From an uncultured Caryophanales bacterium (GTDB lineage Bacteria; Bacillota_I; Bacilli_A; Acholeplasmatales; Anaeroplasmataceae), in contig CAMOUB010000004.1 in the NCBI GenBank assembly GCA_946626345.1, positions 1-38,136 of the forward strand: a DNA stretch of 38,136 bases, given 5' to 3'. The position numbers and the translations under genes are program-made. Below, piece after piece: positions 3,701-30,074 of the stretch. The notes below the pieces were generated by a model. That model saw only the letters and a list, made by a program, of their open reading frames with translations, was not told the origin of the DNA and made no database searches. The first letter of the stretch is position 1. Each line of letters opens with the position of its first letter.

Positions 3701-4003
3701 TTTTAAAATTTCTTTGCATTTTAAATCTGTTTCTTTTTTATATGCACTATCTAATTTTAATGTTAATCTATCTCTTAATTCTCCTGCCGCAGCCTTAGTA
3801 AATGTAATAATTACAAGCTCGCTTGGTTTTATCCAACCATTTTTTAATTGATTGATTACTCTTGAGACAATCATTGTGGTTTTACCAGCACCGGCACCAG
3901 CCATAACTAATACATTTTCTTTATAATTAGACAAAAGCTTTTCTCTTTTAGTCGATTCATCATTATATGGTGCTATCACAATATCATCATCCTTCTTTTC
4001 CAT
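725..4003 (-). CDS. addA: ATP-dependent helicase/nuclease subunit A (AddA)
   Basis: Large subunit of AddAB, which processes double-strand DNA ends for recombination and also degrades unprotected linear DNA. The 1092-residue protein begins with a UvrD/Rep helicase core: Walker A AGAGAGKT at residues 35-42, motif II YIDEYQDTD near 393, motif QQNYRS, motif HKSKGLQGK, and VEATRAEE. It ends with a RecB-type nuclease (KADLVLVYDNKILIIDYKTDK near 1025-1045; the final D-x-K is catalytic). The start ATG lies inside the end of addB (17-nt overlap), which implies translational coupling. The protein is somewhat shorter than B. subtilis AddA (about 1230 residues). The ribosome site is weak, as is common for coupled genes. 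Confidence 0.95.
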   Translation of the reverse strand: MEKKDDDIVIAPYNDESTKREKLLSNYKENVLVMAGAGAGKTTMIVSRVINQLKNGWIKPSELVIITFTKAAAGELRDRLTLKLDSAYKKETDLKCKEILKEAIDNQALIQVSTIHSFCLRLIKERALDINYPLDVCMIDEIETKARKDLFFFNWIKNISDENKKLFDKYKKEFIEDDYVSFLYNMFIEIAELSKEIKIKYRSDLLNKNSNYYIDLMKHQANILIDKSNDYILLHKPTISESEIDLYRVAWLKSLMENINKKDKLFIKEYKDIYKNASKLGETTNIKVYEKEKNGGHLKLANGTKIRVKADLDYSDFDDLLELKNYYNEFSLYQNALVTDLAIRLQKDFQEYLEKPENKHKLSNDQLLNIAYELVSNHKDAREFFKSHIKYLYIDEYQDTDFIQRGLAYKLGQDDNGNFLDSRLFFCGDAKQAIYAFRGADLNVYQSTFDSFSKPTLKNSFVYSLQQNYRSEKTIIDWVNKEFASEHGIEAYEPMIPVLNGPIDDYILNGIYTLNVPNNKNDNKDKNAETESVFIAKLINYLIDPNNGFKLNEAIKDSNNKIIGYEARNIRYNDFLIISKGKKNLNILSDKLKYYNIPINMNGALNFKVDETIVKFKILYHYLINKNDKKAAFAAKQVLMQSALFTNKELANNRLEEFYKICMDKKPFELVEYLVHRSDLFMNKETPKGEVENIESRLQQMLEYLLSQDKLTFEGYDNELDKLMQSAIDKELSLSSDNNAVRIMNRHKSKGLQGKIVICSLRTKDKADSADSYRELKDNSYFYYPTAKNEGIAYPAYINREDSIQAIDRQKEKTRLEYVEATRAEECVIFLDNLSNTSSRFNTFNFSLDNGVKNLTNYEGIKDLYDNNYVKKTIIEAKDYEALDLKNNDVEVSLDSKQKEIKLESLTPSSLDNYDANGWSKVKKLDENRPDGNVFGTVLHRMFELVIIKIKNNELDYDLCLNQAMLESISDILKEERESYENYLKYQLDRFLKSKIIDLIKEAKVALPEYEFSYIDGNKWKNGKADLVLVYDNKILIIDYKTDKIPEGNLGLEKLLKHLEDAYGDQQRLYCEAMKKIFKIEDVSYSFYDMYS

Positions 4004-6818
4004 CTTCTTTAATTAATCCAAGCTTACCTGCACATATATCTTTATAGCTACAATATTTACATGTAAAATTATTATCTTCTTCTGTAAAGCATGCACAAGT
4101 AACATTTCTATTAACAAATAGGTCAACTAAATTATTACCTAATTTTTTTACCATATCTTGATATGATTCTAATGGTTTTTCGATTAAAAATTTTTCATCT
4201 TTTCTTACAAATTCATAAACGAATTTATCTACATTACCTAAATAATATGAATAAATAAGCCACTGTACTTTACTATATAATTTAGATTTATCAAATTTAG
4301 AACCACTCTTATAATCTATTATTCTAATTTGATTAGTATCTAAATTTATATCTATTCTATCAATTCTACTTGTTGGTTTAAAATAAACATTAAGCTTATT
4401 ACATTTCAAATCATTAGGTATCATATTACCTTCTAAATCAAAAGTAATAAATTTATCTAAAATATTTATATCTTTATAATTATCCTTATAGAATTCTTCT
4501 AAACTAACTTCACATCCATATATCATATAATTATTAGTTTTTAAATCTTTATATAATTCTTTTAAATAATTATCTAAATTGATTTTTGCCTCATCAACAA
4601 CTATATCTATTAATTTTTGACTTGGGGATGGATACATTATAATAAATTCATTTACAATTCTATTAAATATATTATTAAATCCTTCTTTATCATAATCTGA
4701 TGGTAAATCACTAGGTTTTACCTTAACTAAATATTTTTTACAGTACTCTTCTAATGTATTATGATATAAATCCCCAAGCTTATTTGCAGGTAACCATTTT
4801 GAATAATCTATTTCTATATCACTATCAAAATATTCTCTGTCATATAAATATTTTAATCTACAACCAGATAGTGATTCTACCTGGGATGGAGTTAATCTAT
4901 ATTCAGGTTTTAAATCATAAACAAAATATTCATCCATTTCATTTACATTTACAAATTCTAATTCTATATCTTTACCTTCTTTTAAAGAACTATAATCTTG
5001 ATTAAATGATTCATTATATTTCATATCATAATTAGATAAATGTAGGTATTTATCTACTGATATTTCTAAATTATTACCTAATAGCTGATTATATATAGGT
5101 GCTTGAGGGGTCATTCTTAAATCTCTTGTATTATAAAATGGTCTTGTAAATGTAATAGATGCATCATAATCTATTGTATCTATTGTATTTAATAATGCAT
5201 TATTTTTGCCTATTGGTTTTTCTGATGCTAGAGGAAGATAATAATTATTATCTAAAAGATAAGTAATTTCATCATCAGCTAAAATTGGTGATTCAACTAC
5301 CTTAGGTACAAAGCTATCAAAAGATAAGCCTATAAAATACACATTTTTTCTTTCAACAATAAATGTATTATTAATCCCTTTAACTAATATTTTATTAAAA
5401 TCTTCATCATCTTTTGTTGTTAAATTTAATAATTTAGCTTCTAATTCTTTTAAGGCAACATTAAAATTTAGTGAATTAGTTCCTAATTTTAATGCTTTAT
5501 TTAATTCTAAAACTGAAGTAATAGAATTATTATCATTTGTTATATTAATTTCATTTAATATTTCAATTAGCTTTTTACCTTTAACATCTATATTTAAAAT
5601 AGAATCTAATATATCTCCTGGCTTTTTAGGCTTATTTTGGAATATATTAACTAATGATTTAATAAAATCTTTATATAAGATTAAATTATTATTAATACTA
5701 TCTTCTATTTCTTTTAAATCTAATTTAGCTAATATTGGGTTTTCATAATCATATATTAATTTTAAATAATTAATCTTATCATTTTCTATTTTATCTATGA
5801 ATAATTTATATCTATCTAATGAATATAATATACCTGCAGACATACCAAGCTTATACGTTGTATCTTTATATATTTTTCCATCTTTTTTAAGTTCAATATA
5901 TGTTTTATTTAAATCAATTAATGGATTATTAATTATTTTAATAAAATCTGTGTATAGATAATTATTAGATGCAAAATGTATTATATCTAATAATAGTAAT
6001 GTTAAATTATCATCCATTATTCCATATGATACATTAATTTTATATGGTAATTTTCTATTTTCTAATGCTGAAGTTAAAGTAGTTATATATTCTTTAGATG
6101 AAACTACTATTAAAATGTCTGCCATATTTAATTTTTTATTTACAATATCATCTAATATATAATCTACTTCATTAAATGCTCCATATGATTTAACAAATGA
6201 TCTATTATTACATTTATTATCTATTTTATAATCAATAATATCTTTAACATTTAATAAATCAATAAATGTTTTTTCATCATATGTTAAATTTGAATTATAA
6301 TATTCTAATATTCCATATCTGTATTTAGTTTTATAATTTGATTCTTTTATTATATTAATTGCATCTTTTATTGTTCTTATTTCATCATAATAATTATTAT
6401 TAATTAAATAATTTTCATAATCTATTATTAATTGGTTAATGCTTTTTATTTTATCATTATAATCTAGCTTCTTTAGTTTTTTACCAGAACGAATTGCATC
6501 TATAATATTAATTATTTCTTTTGTTGTAGTATCACAATAAGAATCAAAATGAATGAATTTATATTCATTTTCATTTAATAAATTACTAACAATTATTTCT
6601 TTTTCAGATGAGTCTATAAATTTTAAATAAGATATTTTATCTTTAGCAAGCTTTGAAATTAATATTTCTTTTGCAGTATCAAAAATGGTTGTAACACTTA
6701 AATTAGAAAAAATAATATCTTTTCTATTATATTTTCTGATTAATGCTTTACCATTTGAGATATTATCACAAATTAAATATTTTCTTTCATGTGAAGTAGA
6801 AAAATCAATTAGATTCAT
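3987..6818 (-). CDS. addB: ATP-dependent nuclease subunit B (AddB-like)
   Basis: Partner of AddA. The 943-residue protein has a C-terminal RecB-type nuclease with IRIIDYKSG as the catalytic D-x-K segment. The four cysteines expected of an AddB iron-sulfur cluster are present: one in LSGCRLKYLYD before the nuclease, and the CKYCSYKDIC group (C-x2-C-x5-C) near the end. The N-terminal helicase-like half is diverged and shows no Walker A, unlike B. subtilis AddB, and the protein is about 200 residues shorter. Start chosen from AGGAGGG at 6823-6829, 4 nt from the ATG, with a good promoter at 6851-6879. First gene of the addBA operon. Confidence 0.92.
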   Translation of the reverse strand: MNLIDFSTSHERKYLICDNISNGKALIRKYNRKDIIFSNLSVTTIFDTAKEILISKLAKDKISYLKFIDSSEKEIIVSNLLNENEYKFIHFDSYCDTTTKEIINIIDAIRSGKKLKKLDYNDKIKSINQLIIDYENYLINNNYYDEIRTIKDAINIIKESNYKTKYRYGILEYYNSNLTYDEKTFIDLLNVKDIIDYKIDNKCNNRSFVKSYGAFNEVDYILDDIVNKKLNMADILIVVSSKEYITTLTSALENRKLPYKINVSYGIMDDNLTLLLLDIIHFASNNYLYTDFIKIINNPLIDLNKTYIELKKDGKIYKDTTYKLGMSAGILYSLDRYKLFIDKIENDKINYLKLIYDYENPILAKLDLKEIEDSINNNLILYKDFIKSLVNIFQNKPKKPGDILDSILNIDVKGKKLIEILNEINITNDNNSITSVLELNKALKLGTNSLNFNVALKELEAKLLNLTTKDDEDFNKILVKGINNTFIVERKNVYFIGLSFDSFVPKVVESPILADDEITYLLDNNYYLPLASEKPIGKNNALLNTIDTIDYDASITFTRPFYNTRDLRMTPQAPIYNQLLGNNLEISVDKYLHLSNYDMKYNESFNQDYSSLKEGKDIELEFVNVNEMDEYFVYDLKPEYRLTPSQVESLSGCRLKYLYDREYFDSDIEIDYSKWLPANKLGDLYHNTLEEYCKKYLVKVKPSDLPSDYDKEGFNNIFNRIVNEFIIMYPSPSQKLIDIVVDEAKINLDNYLKELYKDLKTNNYMIYGCEVSLEEFYKDNYKDINILDKFITFDLEGNMIPNDLKCNKLNVYFKPTSRIDRIDINLDTNQIRIIDYKSGSKFDKSKLYSKVQWLIYSYYLGNVDKFVYEFVRKDEKFLIEKPLESYQDMVKKLGNNLVDLFVNRNVTCACFTEEDNNFTCKYCSYKDICAGKLGLIKEDGKEG

Positions 6819-9020: not shown

Positions 9021-9176
9021 TTATAATGTATTATGAATTTTTATTACATAGATAAATAAAGCCTAAGATAAATAATATATTTAACCAGGATAGCAACATC
9101 AATTGTTGATTTACACGAAGTTAAGGTAAATAGTATTAATGCCTCATATTATTACTAATCCCTATATTTTTTCTTG
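9021..9176. repeat. Repeat A, copy 1 (156 bp)
   Basis: Matches 21961-22116 in the same orientation at 154 of 156 positions (differences at 9030 and 9125). It covers the last 15 nt of the TIR coding region and its 3' flank. Inside is a tandem AGATAAATAA motif (from 9050 and 9065) and a short ATCAA/TTGAT inverted repeat. It has no open reading frame of note. Similarity ends sharply on both sides. Confidence 0.95.
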
Positions 9177-21960: not shown

Positions 21961-22116
21961 TTATAATGTTTTATGAATTTTTATTACATAGATAAATAAA
22001 GCCTAAGATAAATAATATATTTAACCAGGATAGCAACATCAATTGTTGATTTACACGAAGTTAAAGTAAATAGTATTAATGCCTCATATTATTACTAATC
22101 CCTATATTTTTTCTTG
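21961..22116. repeat. Repeat A, copy 2 (156 bp)
   Basis: Direct copy of 9021-9176 with two differences. Here it covers the last codons of the zinc-ribbon nuclease gene, read in another frame than the TIR gene uses in copy 1, and its 3' flank up to the terminator hairpin. Confidence 0.95.
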
Positions 22117-23030
22117 ATTTTAATAATTTCAGAATCTAAGTAATCTTCTAGGTTACCTGTATTCTTATCTCTCACTTCAATTACGTTAAATTTCTTTTTA
22201 TAGTAATAATCTAATTTCTTTTTTTCTGTAGCCATATATTTTTCATCATCTTCTAAACCAAAGAATTCTAAATATACACCAATTTCTTGGTTATTAATAT
22301 TTAATAATAAATAGAAATCAGGATAATATTCTTCATCCTTTTCCTCGTTTATTACTTTCTTTTCATATACGTGAATAATTCTTTTATCAAATAAATAATC
22401 ATCAATCATTTTTTCAGCTTTAGAACGAACATAATGTCCATCCTTACATCTGAAATTCATAGGATATACTCTTCTATAATCTAGGATTTCATCCTTAACA
22501 TTCATTTCTTCTTTAATGATATTTCCATCTTCAGTTTTTACTTCAGGAACCATCTCATCTGATGATTCATCAATTTTCTTTTTACCTGCTAAGAATTCTT
22601 CTTTTTTCTTTAATAATTCAACAGCATCCTTTTTAGCTTTATTTTCATTATCTTTAATATCATATGTATTTTCTAATACACTACCTAATGATATTAATTT
22701 AAGGCAAGCAGTTCTAGCATAATCCATATTCTTAAGCTTATAAATATTGTATTTTAAATTACTATAATAATCTTTAGTTTCTTCTAGTGTATTAGTTGAT
22801 CCTTCTAATTCCTTAAGAATATTTTCTTTCTTTTTATAACAACTATAACATAAATCATATTTAGCATCTGAACCACAAATAATACATTTATGATTATTAT
22901 CAGGTTGTTTTAAAACCCACTTACCTGATTCATCTTTTAGTATTTCACCAGATTCTTTTTTCTTATTGCACTCAAAACAAAGTATATAATTACCTGATGC
23001 CTTTCCACACACTTCGCAGGTCTTTGCCAT
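22095..23030 (-). CDS. Zinc-ribbon and PD-(D/E)XK nuclease-like protein
   Basis: 311 residues. Two N-terminal CxxC-type zinc ribbons (CEVCGKASGN with CFEC; CIICGSDAKYD with CYSC) are followed by a lysine-rich helical, probably coiled-coil segment (about 75-190). A C-terminal nuclease-like domain (about 195-300) has RSKAEKMIDDYL, YYPDFYLLL and VYLEFFGL, giving the acidic residues of the PD-(D/E)XK fold, and NVIEVRD. The domain resembles the insert in the helicase at 16605-19604. It probably binds and cuts nucleic acid. Own promoter in repeat B; AAGGA lies about 10 nt from the ATG. The stop codon lies in repeat A. Confidence 0.78.
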   Translation of the reverse strand: MAKTCEVCGKASGNYILCFECNKKKESGEILKDESGKWVLKQPDNNHKCIICGSDAKYDLCYSCYKKKENILKELEGSTNTLEETKDYYSNLKYNIYKLKNMDYARTACLKLISLGSVLENTYDIKDNENKAKKDAVELLKKKEEFLAGKKKIDESSDEMVPEVKTEDGNIIKEEMNVKDEILDYRRVYPMNFRCKDGHYVRSKAEKMIDDYLFDKRIIHVYEKKVINEEKDEEYYPDFYLLLNINNQEIGVYLEFFGLEDDEKYMATEKKKLDYYYKKKFNVIEVRDKNTGNLEDYLDSEIIKIKKKYRD

Positions 23031-23140: not shown

Positions 23141-26100
23141 TTATCTCTTGCACTTTGGACAAACATAATGTAATACCCCACGTCCTTTAAAATGATCTGA
23201 CCTCTGTTCCCATGTATGGCCACACAATTTACAATGATATTTAGAATTTAATCTAGATCCATTGTATTCTAACACTTCAATTGTTTGTGTGAATCCGGCG
23301 ATTTTTTCTTTATATTCTTCAAATCTTTTTTGTGCTAATTCTTCATCTGATAATATTGGCTTTTCTATTTTTGGAATTTCTATTTTTTGCTTGTTAGCCT
23401 TTTTTTCTGTTTGGGAAATTAATTTTTGTTCTCTATGAATTATTTTCATTTCTTCTGGATTAATAATTCCACTAACAATCAATCTTCCATTCTCTTCAGA
23501 AGCTTCTCCAACAATCGTATCATTCCACAATCTAACAATATTATATTTTGTTGTAAACTGAAGTCCTTTAAGTATTCTTGATACCTTGTACATTTCAGTA
23601 CTATCAACATAAGTTCTTGATTTTGTGACTGTAAGATTTGTGTTTGCAACAACTAATGCATTATTATTTTTATCACCAAGTAACTTTTTTTCGTAATTAG
23701 CAAAAATTTTTGGACATTCATATTTAAGCAAACTAGGCAGATTTTTATAAACATATTTATCAATCATTGAATATGCAAAATATGGAGTAATTGTTCCATC
23801 AAGTGGATTCAAATATAAATGATTGTAGAAATCAATATCTACTATACTTCCATGAATTCTTCCATCTCCACCAATACTCTTAATTTCTTTTGATACATTC
23901 TTTTGGAATTCATCAAATTGCGATAAAAACATCTTAATAGATTTTGAATATGGAACTAAATTTTCATAGAAATATTCCAATGTATGTCCACCAGCATTCT
24001 TTATAGCTCCACCATTTAATATTTGCATAGTTCCCTTAGGAGAGGTCATTATAAACATATAAGTTCCTTCCCTTTTTAGCATATACAATTCACCAAATTG
24101 TCTATTGAAGGTTAATCCTTCTCCTATTCCTCTATAAAAGTTTTCATAATCATCTTTTGTTATTTCATAAATGCCATCTTTATAATCAGAAAACCAGTCA
24201 TAATCCATACTTACCGACAAGTGCTTCATTTGAATATTTTTGCCCTTATATCCAATCTGGTTATCAGAATAAATTCTCTTTATACCATCATCAAAAAAAT
24301 AATTTCTATGACTATGGCCACTAACATAAACGAATCCTTTTGTATAGTCATTCATTGACCAGTCTTTCATTGGCATATGAGTAAAGATAATTACATTCTT
24401 ATCATATAGATAATTTACAACCTTTAAATATAATGACTCGAATTTTCTACTTTCTTCTATTTCTTGTTCTCTAGTCAGTGTATCCCTATAAATACCAAAA
24501 TTAGCATTAAATTCTTCATTTTTACCAGCAAAGCCTAATCCACCAAAAATAATAAGACTTGCTCCACGCATTTTCTTTCGTAGGTTATCGCCATTAATAT
24601 TTTCTAATTCTTGTGTTGTTATTTCTTTCCATCTATCATCAAAATAGAAAATATTATTATGGACTAAATACATATTATTAGCATTAATAACTTCTTTATA
24701 TTTATCGATTATAGAATTCAAAGAATAGTCTTTGAAAGGCCACAACTCATGATTACCTAAAGTTAAGAAAATTTTTCCTCGAGAATTAGATTGTCTTAAA
24801 TTTCTAATGAATGATTCAAATATTTCAAAATCACTAGCTATATCTCCTCCAATAAGTTTTATTGGTGAGTCATCCTTCCCTATATCTTTAGTGACAATTT
24901 TTGTAACATAATTCAAATCATCAAAGCTCTCGCATTTCCAAGCGGCAAATCTATGAAGCATATGAACATCAGTAACATATGATACTAATCCAGAATAGTC
25001 TTCATCATTACTTCTTTGTGTAATTAATTCATTTGTTGTAGCAAGTTCATATTTTTGAGTTTCTTCGAATTCTACTATTTCAAATCTATTAGATGGAATT
25101 GGTTCAAAGACTAAACCAAGCTTTTTTGCAACATCGCTTCTAACTCTTAATCCTTCCAACTTTAAATTATTAATGCATAATATATTTTCAATTCCATCAC
25201 ACATTATTAAATTTGCATTCGATAGATCATTATTTAAATAATGAGCAAAATCGCAAAATGATTTAAACTCTTTTCCATGTGATAAAACAAGGTTTTCTTC
25301 TTTATCAAACCAATCTTGAACTACATAAAAATTACCATCCCTAAAATGCTTTTTTACCTTATATGAGGAATAGTTATTTGGCTTAGGCATTTTTGTATTT
25401 TCGTTTGTCTTATATTTTAAAATATCATTAATATCAATAGGAGCAGTTTCAAGATCTACATTTGATAAATCTCCATCCAGTTCTTTTGCAAAATCATCAA
25501 AGGATACAAAATATCTTTCAATTCTAAGTGAAGCAAATCTTTCTTCTCCTTCAAAATACAAATAATTTACTTCATATAATTGGTAAGTCTCAGAAAATGA
25601 GCCTCGTTTTTGAACAACAAATATGCCATCTCTAAGAAATTTGATTTTATCTCTAATCTTTTTCTTATGCTTATTTCTAGTACTATCTGTCCAACAACCG
25701 CCATCAAAATCTATTAGCACTTCTTCAGCTGCGTCTACACCATAATAAAATGCAATATCTTCAACATCCACACCTCTGAAAGAATCATTTTTTCTTCTAA
25801 ATTCCACAATATAATCTTTTATCGAATCCCCAAACTTTTGAATGATTAATGAAAAGAATATTCTTCCTGCTCCGAAAGATGTAAACTTAGATTCAAAATA
25901 CTTATATTTTTTTACCAAATTATCATATGAATCAATTCCTTCGATTTTGGATATCCATTTTCTTATTTTAATTCCATTATCAACATTTCCTTGATTGTTT
26001 TCTTTTCTTTTTTTTAAAACGGATTCAAAAGTGTCTTGAGTAATATCATAGCCAATAAAAGAATCAAAATTTAGTCTTTTAACATCGATATTATATTTTT

Positions 26101-26449
26101 TAATTTCATCATCTGTAAATACATATCCAAAATAGCAAGATGAATCATAAATGTTCCCTTTTACATACTCAAAGAAGACTTCAAAATTTTCAAAATCTTT
26201 TCTTTCAATATCATAATATGGAATATCATCTCTATAAACGTACTCAACTACAAAAAAGGATTTTTTTATTATGTCATACCCAACATTCTTGAATATTCTA
26301 ATTTGAATTTCATTATCATGGATGTACTGAATTATTAATCCTTTATCAAAATATTCTAACTCTTCAAAAGATAGTTTTGATTTTAGTTTCCTTTGTATTA
26401 CTTGAGGTAATGTTAAATTAGATAACTCTGCCTTGGTTGTTTTTGCCAT
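23141..26449 (-). CDS. Large metallophosphoesterase with C-terminal zinc finger
   Basis: 1102 residues. A calcineurin-like phosphoesterase domain occupies about 485-760 with all metal-site motifs: TDVHM (~492), GGDIAS (~534), LGNHELW (~565), FTHMPM (~690) and GHSHRN (~711). The 480 residues before it are unrecognised but contain two copies of an F-x2-F-x-DFA-x2-L-x2-DLSN motif. The last 35 residues form a CKLCGHTW...CPKCK zinc finger of a type seen in nucleic-acid-binding proteins. The enzyme may be a nuclease or phosphodiesterase; the substrate is unknown. AGGTGG lies 6 nt upstream of the ATG. Last gene of the seven-gene operon, 10 nt after the small HEPN gene. Confidence 0.82.
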   Translation of the reverse strand: MAKTTKAELSNLTLPQVIQRKLKSKLSFEELEYFDKGLIIQYIHDNEIQIRIFKNVGYDIIKKSFFVVEYVYRDDIPYYDIERKDFENFEVFFEYVKGNIYDSSCYFGYVFTDDEIKKYNIDVKRLNFDSFIGYDITQDTFESVLKKRKENNQGNVDNGIKIRKWISKIEGIDSYDNLVKKYKYFESKFTSFGAGRIFFSLIIQKFGDSIKDYIVEFRRKNDSFRGVDVEDIAFYYGVDAAEEVLIDFDGGCWTDSTRNKHKKKIRDKIKFLRDGIFVVQKRGSFSETYQLYEVNYLYFEGEERFASLRIERYFVSFDDFAKELDGDLSNVDLETAPIDINDILKYKTNENTKMPKPNNYSSYKVKKHFRDGNFYVVQDWFDKEENLVLSHGKEFKSFCDFAHYLNNDLSNANLIMCDGIENILCINNLKLEGLRVRSDVAKKLGLVFEPIPSNRFEIVEFEETQKYELATTNELITQRSNDEDYSGLVSYVTDVHMLHRFAAWKCESFDDLNYVTKIVTKDIGKDDSPIKLIGGDIASDFEIFESFIRNLRQSNSRGKIFLTLGNHELWPFKDYSLNSIIDKYKEVINANNMYLVHNNIFYFDDRWKEITTQELENINGDNLRKKMRGASLIIFGGLGFAGKNEEFNANFGIYRDTLTREQEIEESRKFESLYLKVVNYLYDKNVIIFTHMPMKDWSMNDYTKGFVYVSGHSHRNYFFDDGIKRIYSDNQIGYKGKNIQMKHLSVSMDYDWFSDYKDGIYEITKDDYENFYRGIGEGLTFNRQFGELYMLKREGTYMFIMTSPKGTMQILNGGAIKNAGGHTLEYFYENLVPYSKSIKMFLSQFDEFQKNVSKEIKSIGGDGRIHGSIVDIDFYNHLYLNPLDGTITPYFAYSMIDKYVYKNLPSLLKYECPKIFANYEKKLLGDKNNNALVVANTNLTVTKSRTYVDSTEMYKVSRILKGLQFTTKYNIVRLWNDTIVGEASEENGRLIVSGIINPEEMKIIHREQKLISQTEKKANKQKIEIPKIEKPILSDEELAQKRFEEYKEKIAGFTQTIEVLEYNGSRLNSKYHCKLCGHTWEQRSDHFKGRGVLHYVCPKCKR

Positions 26450-26459
26450 TTAACACCAC

Positions 26460-26879
26460 CTACTTTCTTATACTTTTACAATAATCAATTCTAATCTTCT
26501 CAAGAATATCAGCAGCGGCTTGTACTCTATCGTGGTCTTTTTCCAACTTAGCACATTGCTTTTGGTACTCTCTTGAATTTAAGCAATCATTCTTATAAAT
26601 AAATTCAGTAAACACGCTATGAGCCCAATGATTTCTGTTATCACATATTTGAGCTAAAAAATTATAATCATTTGAACTTATTAATGGCTTATTATCCGAA
26701 TTATCCAACTCTTTAAGTTTTCTAATCATCTGCCCTAGTGTCTTATTTTCTATTTCGTCAAAATGCTTACTAACATCTCCAACTTTCATATAAGCATAGA
26801 TATACTTAATATCATGTTCAATTGCTTGGTAGTTAAGCATTGTTTCTGCATATTTAACTTTAAATGTATCAAAATTCAT
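26460..26879 (-). CDS. Small HEPN-like protein
   Basis: 139 residues, nearly all helical. The segment CDNRNHWAHSVF gives an R-x4-H motif (RNHWAH), the catalytic signature of HEPN ribonucleases. This kind of protein often acts as an RNA-cutting toxin or abortive-infection effector. AGGAGGT sits 5 nt before the ATG. It lies 10 nt after the Nmad3 gene and 10 nt before the metallophosphoesterase gene. No adjacent nucleotidyltransferase (MNT) antitoxin gene is seen. Confidence 0.65.
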   Translation of the reverse strand: MNFDTFKVKYAETMLNYQAIEHDIKYIYAYMKVGDVSKHFDEIENKTLGQMIRKLKELDNSDNKPLISSNDYNFLAQICDNRNHWAHSVFTEFIYKNDCLNSREYQKQCAKLEKDHDRVQAAADILEKIRIDYCKSIRK

Positions 26880-26889
26880 AAACTACCTC

Positions 26890-27702
26890 CTAATGACCAC
26901 TACTAGTTAAAATAATATTTTTTATCCAATCCAAGATATCTTTATCGCATTCAACAACAAATTCTTGACCCCTACTAGCTGCTTTAAAATAACCATCCTT
27001 GTAATTCTTTTCGCTATGATAAGTTATATTTTTGTGTTCTAAACATTTAGGCAAAGTCCAATGAGTTCGACAACTATCACATTTTTTAGTTAGTACTAAA
27101 TCTGGTGTGAATTTTAAAGTACCATAACCTAACTGTTTTGTATCAAGCAAGTAATTAGATGCCACATATATTACATTTTTCTTTTTTTTGGTCAATTCTT
27201 CCCTATATGGTTGAGAATGTGGATGCCATTTTAATTCTTTAATATCATCCCATTTTGTTAATTTCTCACCAACTTGTAAATATCCATAAATCACTTGTAA
27301 ATCTAGTGCTTTGTCAACATATTTCAACTTTCCTTCAGCATCGTATTCAGTTTGCTTAAACCAACCAAAAAAGAGAAAAATATCTCCTTTATCTACAGAC
27401 TGATTTCTTAGATGTGAATATGCAGAATCGCTTTGACCAAATGCAGCCATCCAGTTATTATCTCTTTTGATTATATCTTTTCTTATGTCTGGATCAAGAT
27501 GGCAATTTTTATATTCAATATTTGAAGTCTTTAATTGATTTATAATATCAAGGTAACTTTGCCCGCCATAATATAACTCATCATAACGAACATTATCATT
27601 TAATGGAATTGGTAATGATAATAATGTGCCATCAGGAAGAATAGGGCTAGCTATATCATCAAATGTAGAATCAAATCCTTTTCTACTTAATATTAATTTC
27701 AT
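26890..27702 (-). CDS. Nucleotide modification associated domain 3 (Nmad3) protein
   Basis: 270 residues matching the Nmad3 pattern over its full length: MKLILSRKGFDS at the start, SPILPDGTLLSLPIP, CHLDPDI, AFGQSDSAYSHLRNQSV, KGDIFLFFGWF and HPHSQPY. Nmad families were defined by their genomic link to enzymes making or handling modified DNA bases; the biochemical role is not settled, and nucleotide or base recognition or processing is the usual proposal. Two CxxC-like cysteines (CDSC) may bind metal. The only SD-like AGGGGG is far from the ATG, but the gene begins 15 nt after the preceding gene, so coupling is likely. Confidence 0.8.
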   Translation of the reverse strand: MKLILSRKGFDSTFDDIASPILPDGTLLSLPIPLNDNVRYDELYYGGQSYLDIINQLKTSNIEYKNCHLDPDIRKDIIKRDNNWMAAFGQSDSAYSHLRNQSVDKGDIFLFFGWFKQTEYDAEGKLKYVDKALDLQVIYGYLQVGEKLTKWDDIKELKWHPHSQPYREELTKKKKNVIYVASNYLLDTKQLGYGTLKFTPDLVLTKKCDSCRTHWTLPKCLEHKNITYHSEKNYKDGYFKAASRGQEFVVECDKDILDWIKNIILTSSGH

Positions 27703-28321: not shown

Positions 28322-28942
28322 TTAGTTCTCCACTTCATAATCTGCATATAACTTTTCCAATAATGATGCCCCAGTATGAAATTCATCATTTTGTGATTTT
28401 AAAAAATTTAAATTCACTTTATATTGTTCCGGAAAATTGTGAAACTCTTTTGCCATTCTATCTACTCCTGCACCACATAAATATGCTGGTGTATTTTTCC
28501 CTTTTGCCCCTAAAGATGGAATTGTTTCATCAAACAATGGTTCAGTAACATCAACATCAAACAACTGCTTCACAACTTTATTTGTAAGTTGTATAAAATA
28601 CGGAATTCTAACAACTTTATATCCTAATTCTTCATAAAACTTTGAAGTTTCATAATCTGTTATTATTTTATCTGGATCTTGATAATGTTGTAATCCATCA
28701 AATTCCACAATCAATTTTAAACTTTTGCTTCTATAATCAGGTCTTCTTCTAGATTTAACTCCATAAGGCAAATCATCGATTGTTTTATCATGAATCCAAT
28801 CATTAGTTTGGGGAAATATGACTTTTAGATATTCATCCAAACCATTTCTATGTAATCCTGTATCAAGGTCAATTCCAGCTTCTATAGCTTTTTCAGTAGT
28901 TTCTCTTAAAAACCCCCATTTATTATCATTCCATTTTGCCAT
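28322..28942 (-). CDS. DUF559/Vsr-like endonuclease
   Basis: 206 residues. The central part has a very-short-patch-repair-like nuclease core: RRRPDYRS, LIVEFDGLQHY and FYEELGYKVVRIPYF, the order seen in DUF559/MTES_1575-type endonucleases, with D and E-x-D metal residues. A family member would cleave DNA near mismatched or modified sites or act in restriction. It starts 2 nt after the XRE regulator stop (GAGG in the regulator's last codons) and its stop is 2 nt before the next gene, so it is tightly co-translated. Confidence 0.8.
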   Translation of the reverse strand: MAKWNDNKWGFLRETTEKAIEAGIDLDTGLHRNGLDEYLKVIFPQTNDWIHDKTIDDLPYGVKSRRRPDYRSKSLKLIVEFDGLQHYQDPDKIITDYETSKFYEELGYKVVRIPYFIQLTNKVVKQLFDVDVTEPLFDETIPSLGAKGKNTPAYLCGAGVDRMAKEFHNFPEQYKVNLNFLKSQNDEFHTGASLLEKLYADYEVEN

Positions 28943-28944
28943 GC

Positions 28945-29142
28945 TTACTCAGCCTCGATTCCATTCTCTTTGCATAGTTCAAAGAGTTTTCTTTTTGCTT
29001 TTATTGTTGGTTCAGTATTACCATTCTCCCAACGATTAATCATAGCAAAAGATACCTCAAGCAATTTAGTTAATTCTTCTTGAGATATTATTAGTTTGTC
29101 TCTTAACTTCTTAACTAATGCTGGATAATCAAAGTTTATCAT
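28945..29142 (-). CDS. XRE-family helix-turn-helix regulator
   Basis: 65 residues, almost entirely a Cro/CI-type domain: LRDKLIISQEELTKLLEVS, INRWENGNTEPT and KRKLFELC. AGGAGA lies 10 nt before the ATG. Small XRE proteins inside defence operons usually repress their own operon; this one probably controls the promoter near 30247 or senses infection, which is inference. Confidence 0.85.
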   Translation of the reverse strand: MINFDYPALVKKLRDKLIISQEELTKLLEVSFAMINRWENGNTEPTIKAKRKLFELCKENGIEAE

Positions 29143-29165: not shown

Positions 29166-30074
29166 TTATTTTGGATTAAAAATCGGTTTAAGAGAAGCAT
29201 CTTCAAAAGGATAATATGTTAAATCATTCAGATACTTTTCTACCTTTTCAGTTGGCAAATAAAGACCATTATAATCACAAGGTGAAATCAAGTTAGATTC
29301 AAACAAAAAGTAATCAAATATCATATCAATAAAATTATAGAATTCACATGTATATTTCCTTATTAGTTGAATATTAATGAACGGAGATGCTTTTGAAAAT
29401 CCAATAGGCTCCAAAATTCCTAGCTCTTCATTGCAACCCAAAGCAACATTTATATCATTATAATGTATTATTTGATCTCTAGGAGAAACACATTCTTTTA
29501 TCCAACTATGGTAATTATCCATTATACATTGAAACACTGAAGAATCTTCATCATTTGCTTTTATTTTTTGATCTACATAAGAAAGGAAACTTGTATATTT
29601 TCCGCTATCTTTGATATGTCCAAATGTGATTGATTTTGAAACACCTTTATAATAATAAGAAAATAGTTGAGCGATTCTATCTAAGCCAGTTTTTATAGAG
29701 ATTAAGCATGTATGAATAGAACAAAAATACTCGACAAATTCAATGTTTGACATTGGACAATGCTCATCTAAAGCATTTAAATAATCAATGTAAGATTGAA
29801 TTAATCTATTAAAACTAAATGCAGGAGATAAAAAAGAAATGATGTTATTTTTTAAATACTTCCAAGATAAAGTAATTAATTGAAATCTTCTATTGTCTTT
29901 ATAAGAACCAGTGGAAACCATCTCTTGATAAATATTTTTACTAAAAGTAATATCTTTTTTCAACCACATTTTATATCTAAAACAATCTATAGATTCTCCG
30001 TATTTATCATTGAAGTGTTTTATATCAAATTTGAGATTATTAACTTTTTCTATTTTCTCTTTTTCTATAATCAT
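29166..30074 (-). CDS. HEPN-like protein (Cthe_2314 type)
   Basis: 302 residues, helical. SPRDQIIHYNDI gives an R-x4-H motif (RDQIIH) at about residue 206, and the segment LISIKTGLDRIAQLFSYYY fits Cthe_2314-like HEPN proteins. A ribonuclease effector or an RNA-binding role is likely. First gene of the seven-gene operon; a weak GGGAAAT precedes the ATG. The gene directly follows a coding remnant (30077-30208) whose end reaches its start codon. Confidence 0.6.
   Translation of the reverse strand: MIIEKEKIEKVNNLKFDIKHFNDKYGESIDCFRYKMWLKKDITFSKNIYQEMVSTGSYKDNRRFQLITLSWKYLKNNIISFLSPAFSFNRLIQSYIDYLNALDEHCPMSNIEFVEYFCSIHTCLISIKTGLDRIAQLFSYYYKGVSKSITFGHIKDSGKYTSFLSYVDQKIKANDEDSSVFQCIMDNYHSWIKECVSPRDQIIHYNDINVALGCNEELGILEPIGFSKASPFINIQLIRKYTCEFYNFIDMIFDYFLFESNLISPCDYNGLYLPTEKVEKYLNDLTYYPFEDASLKPIFNPK

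Follow-up and report, generated by a model that had tools for sequence, protein, structure and literature searches.

Domain architecture of the metallophosphoesterase protein

The window considered here, a stretch of 38,136 nt from an uncultured Caryophanales bacterium of the Anaeroplasmataceae (assembly GCA_946626345.1, contig CAMOUB010000004.1, positions 1 to 38,136), contains a large gene for a metallophosphoesterase (MPE) protein. The gene occupies positions 23141 to 26449 of the minus strand (its start codon, ATG, lies at 26449 and its stop codon ends at 23141), is preceded by a Shine-Dalgarno-like AGGTGG, and encodes a product of 1102 amino acids (aa); promoter and terminator scans gave results at the level of shuffled sequence. 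From the N terminus onward, the protein consists of a repeat region, the MPE core, a conserved C-terminal domain (CTD), and a zinc finger. An earlier account of the window made from the letters alone (the sequence-only reading) had the coordinates of this open reading frame (ORF) exactly right and recognized a complete calcineurin-like active site, two copies of an N-terminal motif, and a C-terminal zinc finger, all of which hold; it overlooked a third, degenerate repeat and the CTD, the latter being the part that marks the family better than the N terminus or the zinc finger does.

The only Pfam family to match the protein above its cut-off is Metallophos (PF00149, residues 492 to 715, E = 2.1e-6, 28.8 bits versus a gathering cut-off of 21.5); no P-loop or NACHT family was found in Pfam at E values up to 1. 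The eight canonical metal-site residues (DxH, GD, GNH(E/D), H, and GHxH, here D494, H496, D536, N566, H567, H691, H712, and H714) are invariant in all 14 aligned MPE cores, as are a DNQxGY specific to the family and a stretch of the form FxxxxxxxNA, and the binuclear-metal active site is, as judged from this alignment, intact. (Loci carrying family members are numbered with the prefix L; the MPE rows of L014, which is split, L054, and L057 were left out of the alignment.) In a profile search of the PDB, the best match to the core is Lmo2642 (2xmo, E = 2.6e-5, over 82 profile positions only), and there is a weak, partial match to the nuclease Mre11 (3auz, E = 0.002 over 142 positions).

The CTD follows the MPE core directly and, according to the alignments, spans about residues 755 to 985 (roughly 230 residues). 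Across 14 aligned rows, its invariant positions are a K, a Y, an F, a GG pair, the motif G-x-[IV]-H-G-x-I-[VI]-D-x-[DE], and then an H, and an NPxDG after the motif is conserved nearly, not fully. The domain has no convincing match in Pfam (none above the cut-off), PHROGs, or NCBIfam; its profile found nothing convincing among PDB sequences (best E = 0.58); and its predicted structure (pLDDT 82.9, pTM 0.78) found no PDB fold better than E = 0.92, although the absence of a match does not by itself denote a new fold. Two further fold searches with this model, one (VIA) reaching at best Z = 4.6 for an SH2 domain over 79 residues and one against viral folds reaching at best E = 0.33, were not used as evidence. 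The CTD is seemingly an undescribed domain that is not contained in the libraries searched.

Exchange of the catalytic partner

Distinct CTD rows number 20, and they come from sampled relatives, class and phylum samples, five named genome contigs, two L. reuteri plasmids, and viral contigs. An MPE precedes the CTD in 17 of them, and one (L018) is a CTD-only fragment. In the other two, the CTD comes after a PD-(D/E)XK-like domain of ~255 residues: these are a 569-aa L. reuteri plasmid protein (L009, found in two records) and a protein on a phage contig (L056). The pattern GDxD...WDxK...Q...Y is invariant in five of five aligned rows of this partner domain, and we take it to be the core of a PD-(D/E)XK nuclease, with the conserved D...(D/E)xK and the downstream Q. 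The partner domain is found in 29 plasmid records, including the two L. reuteri fusions, and in the three other plasmid records that were opened it constitutes a protein of its own; one such stand-alone member weakly matches an exonuclease PHROG (E = 0.038). Stand-alone plasmid proteins of about 255 aa that carry PD-(D/E)XK-like motifs and lack a Pfam match lie at L036:1303-2061, L037:2085-2861, and L038:3989-4756.

In a tree of the CTD, the two rows with the PD-(D/E)XK-like partner group together as a single clade (support 100/98), which in the midpoint-rooted drawing has MPE rows to either side. A fully supported branch separates L035, L017, and L057, all of them MPE rows, from the rest, and most of the deeper branching among the remaining rows lacks resolution. 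Under midpoint rooting, which was used for drawing only, this arrangement looks like a single swap of the catalytic partner.

Since the same CTD is found with an MPE in most rows and with a PD-(D/E)XK-like domain in two, the MPE of this family may itself act on nucleic acid, and no other argument for such an activity is as strong. In the interpretation that we tentatively adopt, the protein would be a nuclease effector encoded by a single gene that moves horizontally, and its likeliest targets would be phages or other invading elements. We put the chance of this at somewhat under even. A more ambitious proposal, which we regard as doubtful, is that the CTD marks out a kind of conflict protein not described so far. 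With its invariant H, D, and K residues and its lack of a recognizable fold match, it would serve as a stand-alone sensing (or second catalytic) module linking a trigger to interchangeable domains that cut nucleic acid (MPE or PD-(D/E)XK), with N-terminal repeats, DUF4116, or zinc fingers setting the target.

Variable N termini and zinc fingers

The motif F-x2-F-x-DFA-x2-L-x2-DLSN is present in two exact copies, starting at residues 314 and 395, and not even a single copy appeared in any of 20000 shuffles of residues 1 to 480. When the repeats were compared with hhalign, the probability of a match was 94% for repeats 2 and 3 (P = 9e-8), and a further copy, lying between about residues 50 and 135, matched them weakly (30% and 45%, P = 5e-4 and 2e-4); the comparison supports a shared origin of repeats 2 and 3, the likeness of repeat 1 being weak. 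The predicted structure of the N terminus (pLDDT 76.2, pTM 0.56) contains a beta-beta-beta-alpha run three times, at about residues 52 to 95, 277 to 323, and 362 to 404. Between the first two of these lies a helical insertion that was modeled mostly with low confidence and that, in the alignment, is not present in L011 and L012.

No family in Pfam, PHROGs, or NCBIfam, housekeeping or otherwise, accounts for the N terminus of the window protein (YolD falls far under the cut-off, at E = 0.3). The fold comparison that the sequence-only reading had proposed was run with both the N-terminal and the CTD models and returned no convincing match; for the N-terminal model, the best E value was 0.086 and Z was at most 4.3, and neither these nor its many weak fold matches to half-domains of glucokinase, exopolyphosphatase, and NTPDase were taken as evidence.

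Long repeat-bearing N termini are found in the window protein and in L010, L013, L014, L015, L025, and L032, and a shorter version is found in L011 and L012. A DUF4116 domain plus one repeat-like unit occupies this position in L033 and L034 (by Pfam) and in L054 (by similarity). The N terminus of L017 is cysteine rich (by eye), L016, L019, and L035 have almost none, and L057 starts at a contig edge. At the other end, a C-terminal zinc finger occurs in 5 of the 17 MPE-bearing rows. The DUF4379 treble-clef family (PF14311) matches that of the window protein below its cut-off (13.2 bits versus 24.5, E = 0.1) and reaches E = 0.015, also below the cut-off, in L015; a separate protein with CapR and DUF4379 zinc-finger matches adjoins L035. 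The proposal that a target-recognition region is fused to a nuclease or phosphodiesterase stands insofar as a variable outer region is joined, by domain shuffling, to a catalytic domain of that kind.

In genome G231, a lone 119-aa protein at L020:1502-1861 resembles the C-terminal zinc finger; the search match in this genome (L007/L020) was rejected as a zinc-finger protein and not a family member. Upstream of the family gene in L014 (L014:4539-6761), a protein of 740 aa has eight stretches that match DUF4379 and, by eye, a nuclease-like middle.

Distribution of the family

Searches with the window protein gave true matches in 2 of 100 relatives, its own genome included, and in none of 26 other genomes of the genus. 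With the CTD, 4 of 395 class genomes and 2 of 324 phylum genomes were positive, the window's own genome being counted in both; in the class to which the L014 genome belongs, the count was 5 of 291 (that genome included). As finally tallied, the class sample stands at 4 of 395 and the phylum sample at 4 of 392 (one of these a CTD-only fragment), again with the window's own genome counted; before false matches were rejected, the raw tallies were 3 in the 100 relatives and 5 in the 395 class genomes. Among the rejected candidates is an N-terminal match in G056 (L003, E = 2.3e-4) that lies within an ORF resembling a lipoate ligase (by eye) and was judged to be due to chance.

Bacterial genome assemblies supply 15 of the 20 rows, of which some may lie in mobile elements, and the viral contigs bearing the family are L025, L054, L056, and L057 (L053 and L026 duplicate the contig of L025, and L055 duplicates the locus of L033). 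Searches of the viral contigs with the window protein and with the L. reuteri protein recovered no relative, and a search of these contigs with an N-terminal profile recovered only the viral contig already known. Nothing in the plasmid records matches L035. A frameshift or an assembly error divides the family gene of L014 (L014:9878-13050) into two ORFs that overlap, and the pieces were handled separately. As compared at the sequence level, the family is scattered, present on viral contigs and plasmids, and equipped with varying N- and C-terminal parts.

Copies on the four viral contigs and on the L. reuteri plasmids are also what would be expected of a gene in the service of mobile elements, with which a phage or plasmid would act against rival elements or against the defenses of the host (counter-defense) and which would stay behind in chromosomes. 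A precedent is the mycobacteriophage MPE protein Gp48, which, according to the available part of its description, disrupts host DNA integrity and silences antiphage genes (PMC12287305); its likeness to the window protein, taken from that description, is that of an MPE protein tied to DNA damage. Set against this are the absence of any match to the window protein, L035, or L057 in 50,697 phage records (L056 has a single match, which covers 30% of the protein and falls in its N-terminal half), the predominance of rows from bacterial assemblies, and the position of L016 and the window copy among host defense genes. We consider counter-defense rather unlikely and retain the invader-directed effector as the preferred interpretation.

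Genomic neighborhoods

The gene for the window protein is part of a dense minus-strand cluster of candidate defense genes (positions 9162 to 30074) recognized in Pfam and PADLOC scans, with TIR, NOV_C/PD-T4-1, methyltransferase (by eye), and HNH proteins, two SLFN-type helicases (one a strong PDC-S41 match), a UvrD helicase that carries zinc ribbons, and PDC-S69, Nmad3, and DUF559 proteins. Within this cluster, the gene is the last of a tight run that begins with a helix-turn-helix-like ORF at 28945-29142 (by eye) and continues through the DUF559 protein (which we presume to be nuclease-like), two small ORFs, the Nmad3 protein, and a 139-aa protein (Table 1). In 19.5 kb examined of G009, a genome of the same genus, only the flanking S8-protease-like and cohesin-like genes (both by eye) were matched, and no other window ORF was.

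Table 1. Features of the MPE gene and its nearest neighbors (window coordinates; residues refer to the 1102-aa protein)
Feature	Coordinates	Strand	Basis
Whole MPE gene	23141..26449	-	ORF and translation; ATG with Shine-Dalgarno-like AGGTGG upstream
Repeat 1, degenerate beta-beta-beta-alpha copy (residues 52-130)	26060..26296	-	Weak hhalign match to repeats 2 and 3; predicted structure
Helical insertion between repeats 1 and 2 (residues 141-273)	25631..26029	-	Predicted structure; alignment
Repeat 2 (residues 277-345), motif copy FVSFDDFAKELDGDLSN at 314-330	25415..25621	-	Predicted structure; profile comparison
Repeat 3 (residues 360-445), motif copy FKSFCDFAHYLNNDLSN at 395-411	25115..25372	-	Predicted structure; profile comparison
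MPE core (residues 485-751)	24197..24997	-	PF00149; invariant metal site in 14/14 aligned cores
CTD, core motif GRIHGSIVDIDFYNH at residues 863-877 (23819-23863)	23495..24187	-	Alignments; fold and PDB profile searches
C4 zinc finger, CKLCGHTW...CPKC (residues 1073-1100)	23150..23233	-	Cysteine pattern
139-aa protein with RNHWAH (HEPN-like Rx4H, by eye), 10 nt upstream of the MPE gene	26460..26879	-	No Pfam match
Nmad3 protein, same tight run	26890..27702	-	Pfam PF18754, E 1.7e-60
DUF559 protein, same run	28322..28942	-	Pfam PF04480, E 2.1e-5
Next downstream gene (110-nt gap), Cys-rich N terminus (by eye), PDC-S69-like C terminus	22095..23030	-	PADLOC PDC-S69, E 1.6e-24; no Pfam match

Among the other copies, L016 adjoins an ABC-3C SMEK protein, DUF2326, ThsB-TIR, and AbiH, and L017 is separated by about 7 kb from an AIPR gene. 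L015 is flanked by a NERD gene and a UvrD gene, and a PDC-S31-like gene and, by eye, an integrase-like ORF are found nearby. L011 is followed by an FRG/PDC-S15-like protein, a near-copy of which follows L012, itself situated downstream of a serine-recombinase-like gene (by eye). Serine-recombinase-like genes (by eye) also flank L033, where AlbA_2/PDC-S50 and DUF2971/PDC-S31 matches were found. In L025, a probable phage genome, the gene lies between endolysin-like and DUF2800/Cas4-like genes, on the strand opposite its main phage-like neighbors (all by eye). The contig of L010 is too short for its surroundings to be judged.

Proposed function and its alternatives

In the mechanism that we envisage, the CTD would be the shared control, sensing, or gating part; the variable N terminus, together with the zinc finger where there is one, might help to recognize a target nucleic acid or phage protein; and the MPE, once triggered, would cut nucleic acid, as suggested by the nuclease-like domain that stands in for it ahead of the CTD in two other proteins. 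Activation could then damage the nucleic acid of either the invader or the host. We infer the defense role, the substrate, the trigger, and the direction of attack from domain content and genomic context.

A number of results weigh against this proposal. The PD-(D/E)XK assignment of the partner domain rests on motifs, the domain having no match in Pfam and none to a nuclease in the PDB, and the PADLOC-DB 2.0.0 models returned no family for the window MPE protein at E values up to 0.01. L013, L018, L019, L032, and L034 lie amid ordinary-looking genes (by eye). Nor did a crude neighbor control show a clear enrichment of defense models around the family: at 1e-10, 66 PADLOC families were matched by 109 neighboring ORFs and 45 by 122 control ORFs, numbers that refer to families matched, not to proteins, and of which the 66 is inflated by many overlapping GajB models. 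Here, 13 of the 20 family loci were considered, neighbors were ORFs of at least 100 aa whose midpoints lay no more than 6 kb from the locus (ORFs containing X were dropped), and controls came from one other region in each of the same 13 genomes, although one control region has no ORF, one spans only 5 kb, and six start 1 kb from the contig start. Among the families listed, AbiE, SduA, and Vsr models are matched in the control regions too. The case for defense is built on individual loci and on mobility, not on statistics, and the defense-island linkage put forward in the sequence-only reading is plausible from the window island, the L016 island, and the probable-phage copy, with no clear enrichment in the neighbor control.

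The ordinary-looking surroundings of several copies, the UvrD and NERD genes flanking L015, and the weak Mre11 match could also befit a dispensable enzyme of DNA repair or RNA processing with no link to conflict. Mre11/SbcD proteins share the fold class and metal-binding motifs of the window protein. They differ in that their motif is GNHD, where the window protein has GNHE, in that the CTD is matched by no PDB sequence, and in that a Pfam scan of 10 window neighbors, the two immediately adjacent genes among them, found no SMC, Rad50, or SbcC gene. A repair enzyme would not usually be missing from the rest of the genus sample, vary in its N terminus, or occur on viral contigs and plasmids, and we regard this explanation as very improbable.

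A further point against a nuclease is that Lmo2642, which we take to be phosphodiesterase-like, matches the core better than Mre11 does, making a small-molecule substrate possible; in the case of Lmo2642, the difference lies in the repeats and the CTD, which are unmatched among PDB sequences and folds. The set DxH-GD-GNHE-H-GHxH is, in addition, that of class III cyclic-nucleotide phosphodiesterases. The protein might hence be an immune effector or regulator that hydrolyzes a nucleotide signal instead of nucleic acid, as has been suggested for the metallophosphatase of DS-8. In the part of the DefensePredictor report available, DS-8 (metallophosphatase-NACHT) and DS-9 (metallophosphatase plus HAD phosphatase) are validated in antiphage defense, which is abolished by mutating their predicted catalytic residues, and DS-8 is described as homologous to the cGAMP phosphodiesterase SMPDL3A (PMC13092281). 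The union of the CTD with a PD-(D/E)XK-like domain fits nucleic acid better, and no nucleotide-cyclase family was found among the window proteins scanned; a nucleotide substrate is, on balance, unlikely, and nucleic acid remains the substrate that we favor.

Relation to known systems

By their descriptions in the same partial source, DS-8 and DS-9 resemble the window protein in having a metallophosphatase domain within a single-protein or two-gene system. The window protein is set apart from DS-8 by its lack of a NACHT or other P-loop match and by its repeats, its own CTD, and its zinc finger, and from DS-9 by the lack of an HAD phosphatase gene among the 10 scanned neighbors. An MPE endonuclease of Pseudomonas putida, as far as it is described in the text available, is similar in combining an MPE with DNA incision. 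A parallel in logic is offered by the TRADD-N proteins, for which the accessible text of a 2021 eLife survey (PMC8195603) reports REase, HNH, and calcineurin-like phosphoesterase effectors alternating beside a constant domain; in the present family, that constant role falls to the unnamed CTD, which lies downstream of the effector, and no TRADD-N match was seen. No description of the MPE-CTD architecture was found in the open-license literature searched (titles and abstract openings).

The targets of the validated defense metallophosphatases are left unsettled in the available text (PMC13092281), and the present family amounts to a comparison built by evolution, in which one constant domain is paired in some proteins with an MPE and in others with a PD-(D/E)XK-like domain. 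Should nucleic acid prove to be cut by both, this would be an argument for at least some defense MPEs being nucleases and not signal hydrolases, and a domain lacking from the searched libraries would also acquire a name.

Other genes in the window

At positions 3987-6818, the window encodes an AddB-like protein (by eye) that, at E values up to 1e-20, is present in 1 of 27 genomes of the genus sample, namely, its own; from this distribution, the contig may be accessory or misbinned. At the upstream end of the candidate-defense cluster, positions 29166-30074 encode a small protein with a HEPN-like Rx4H motif, RDQIIH (by eye).

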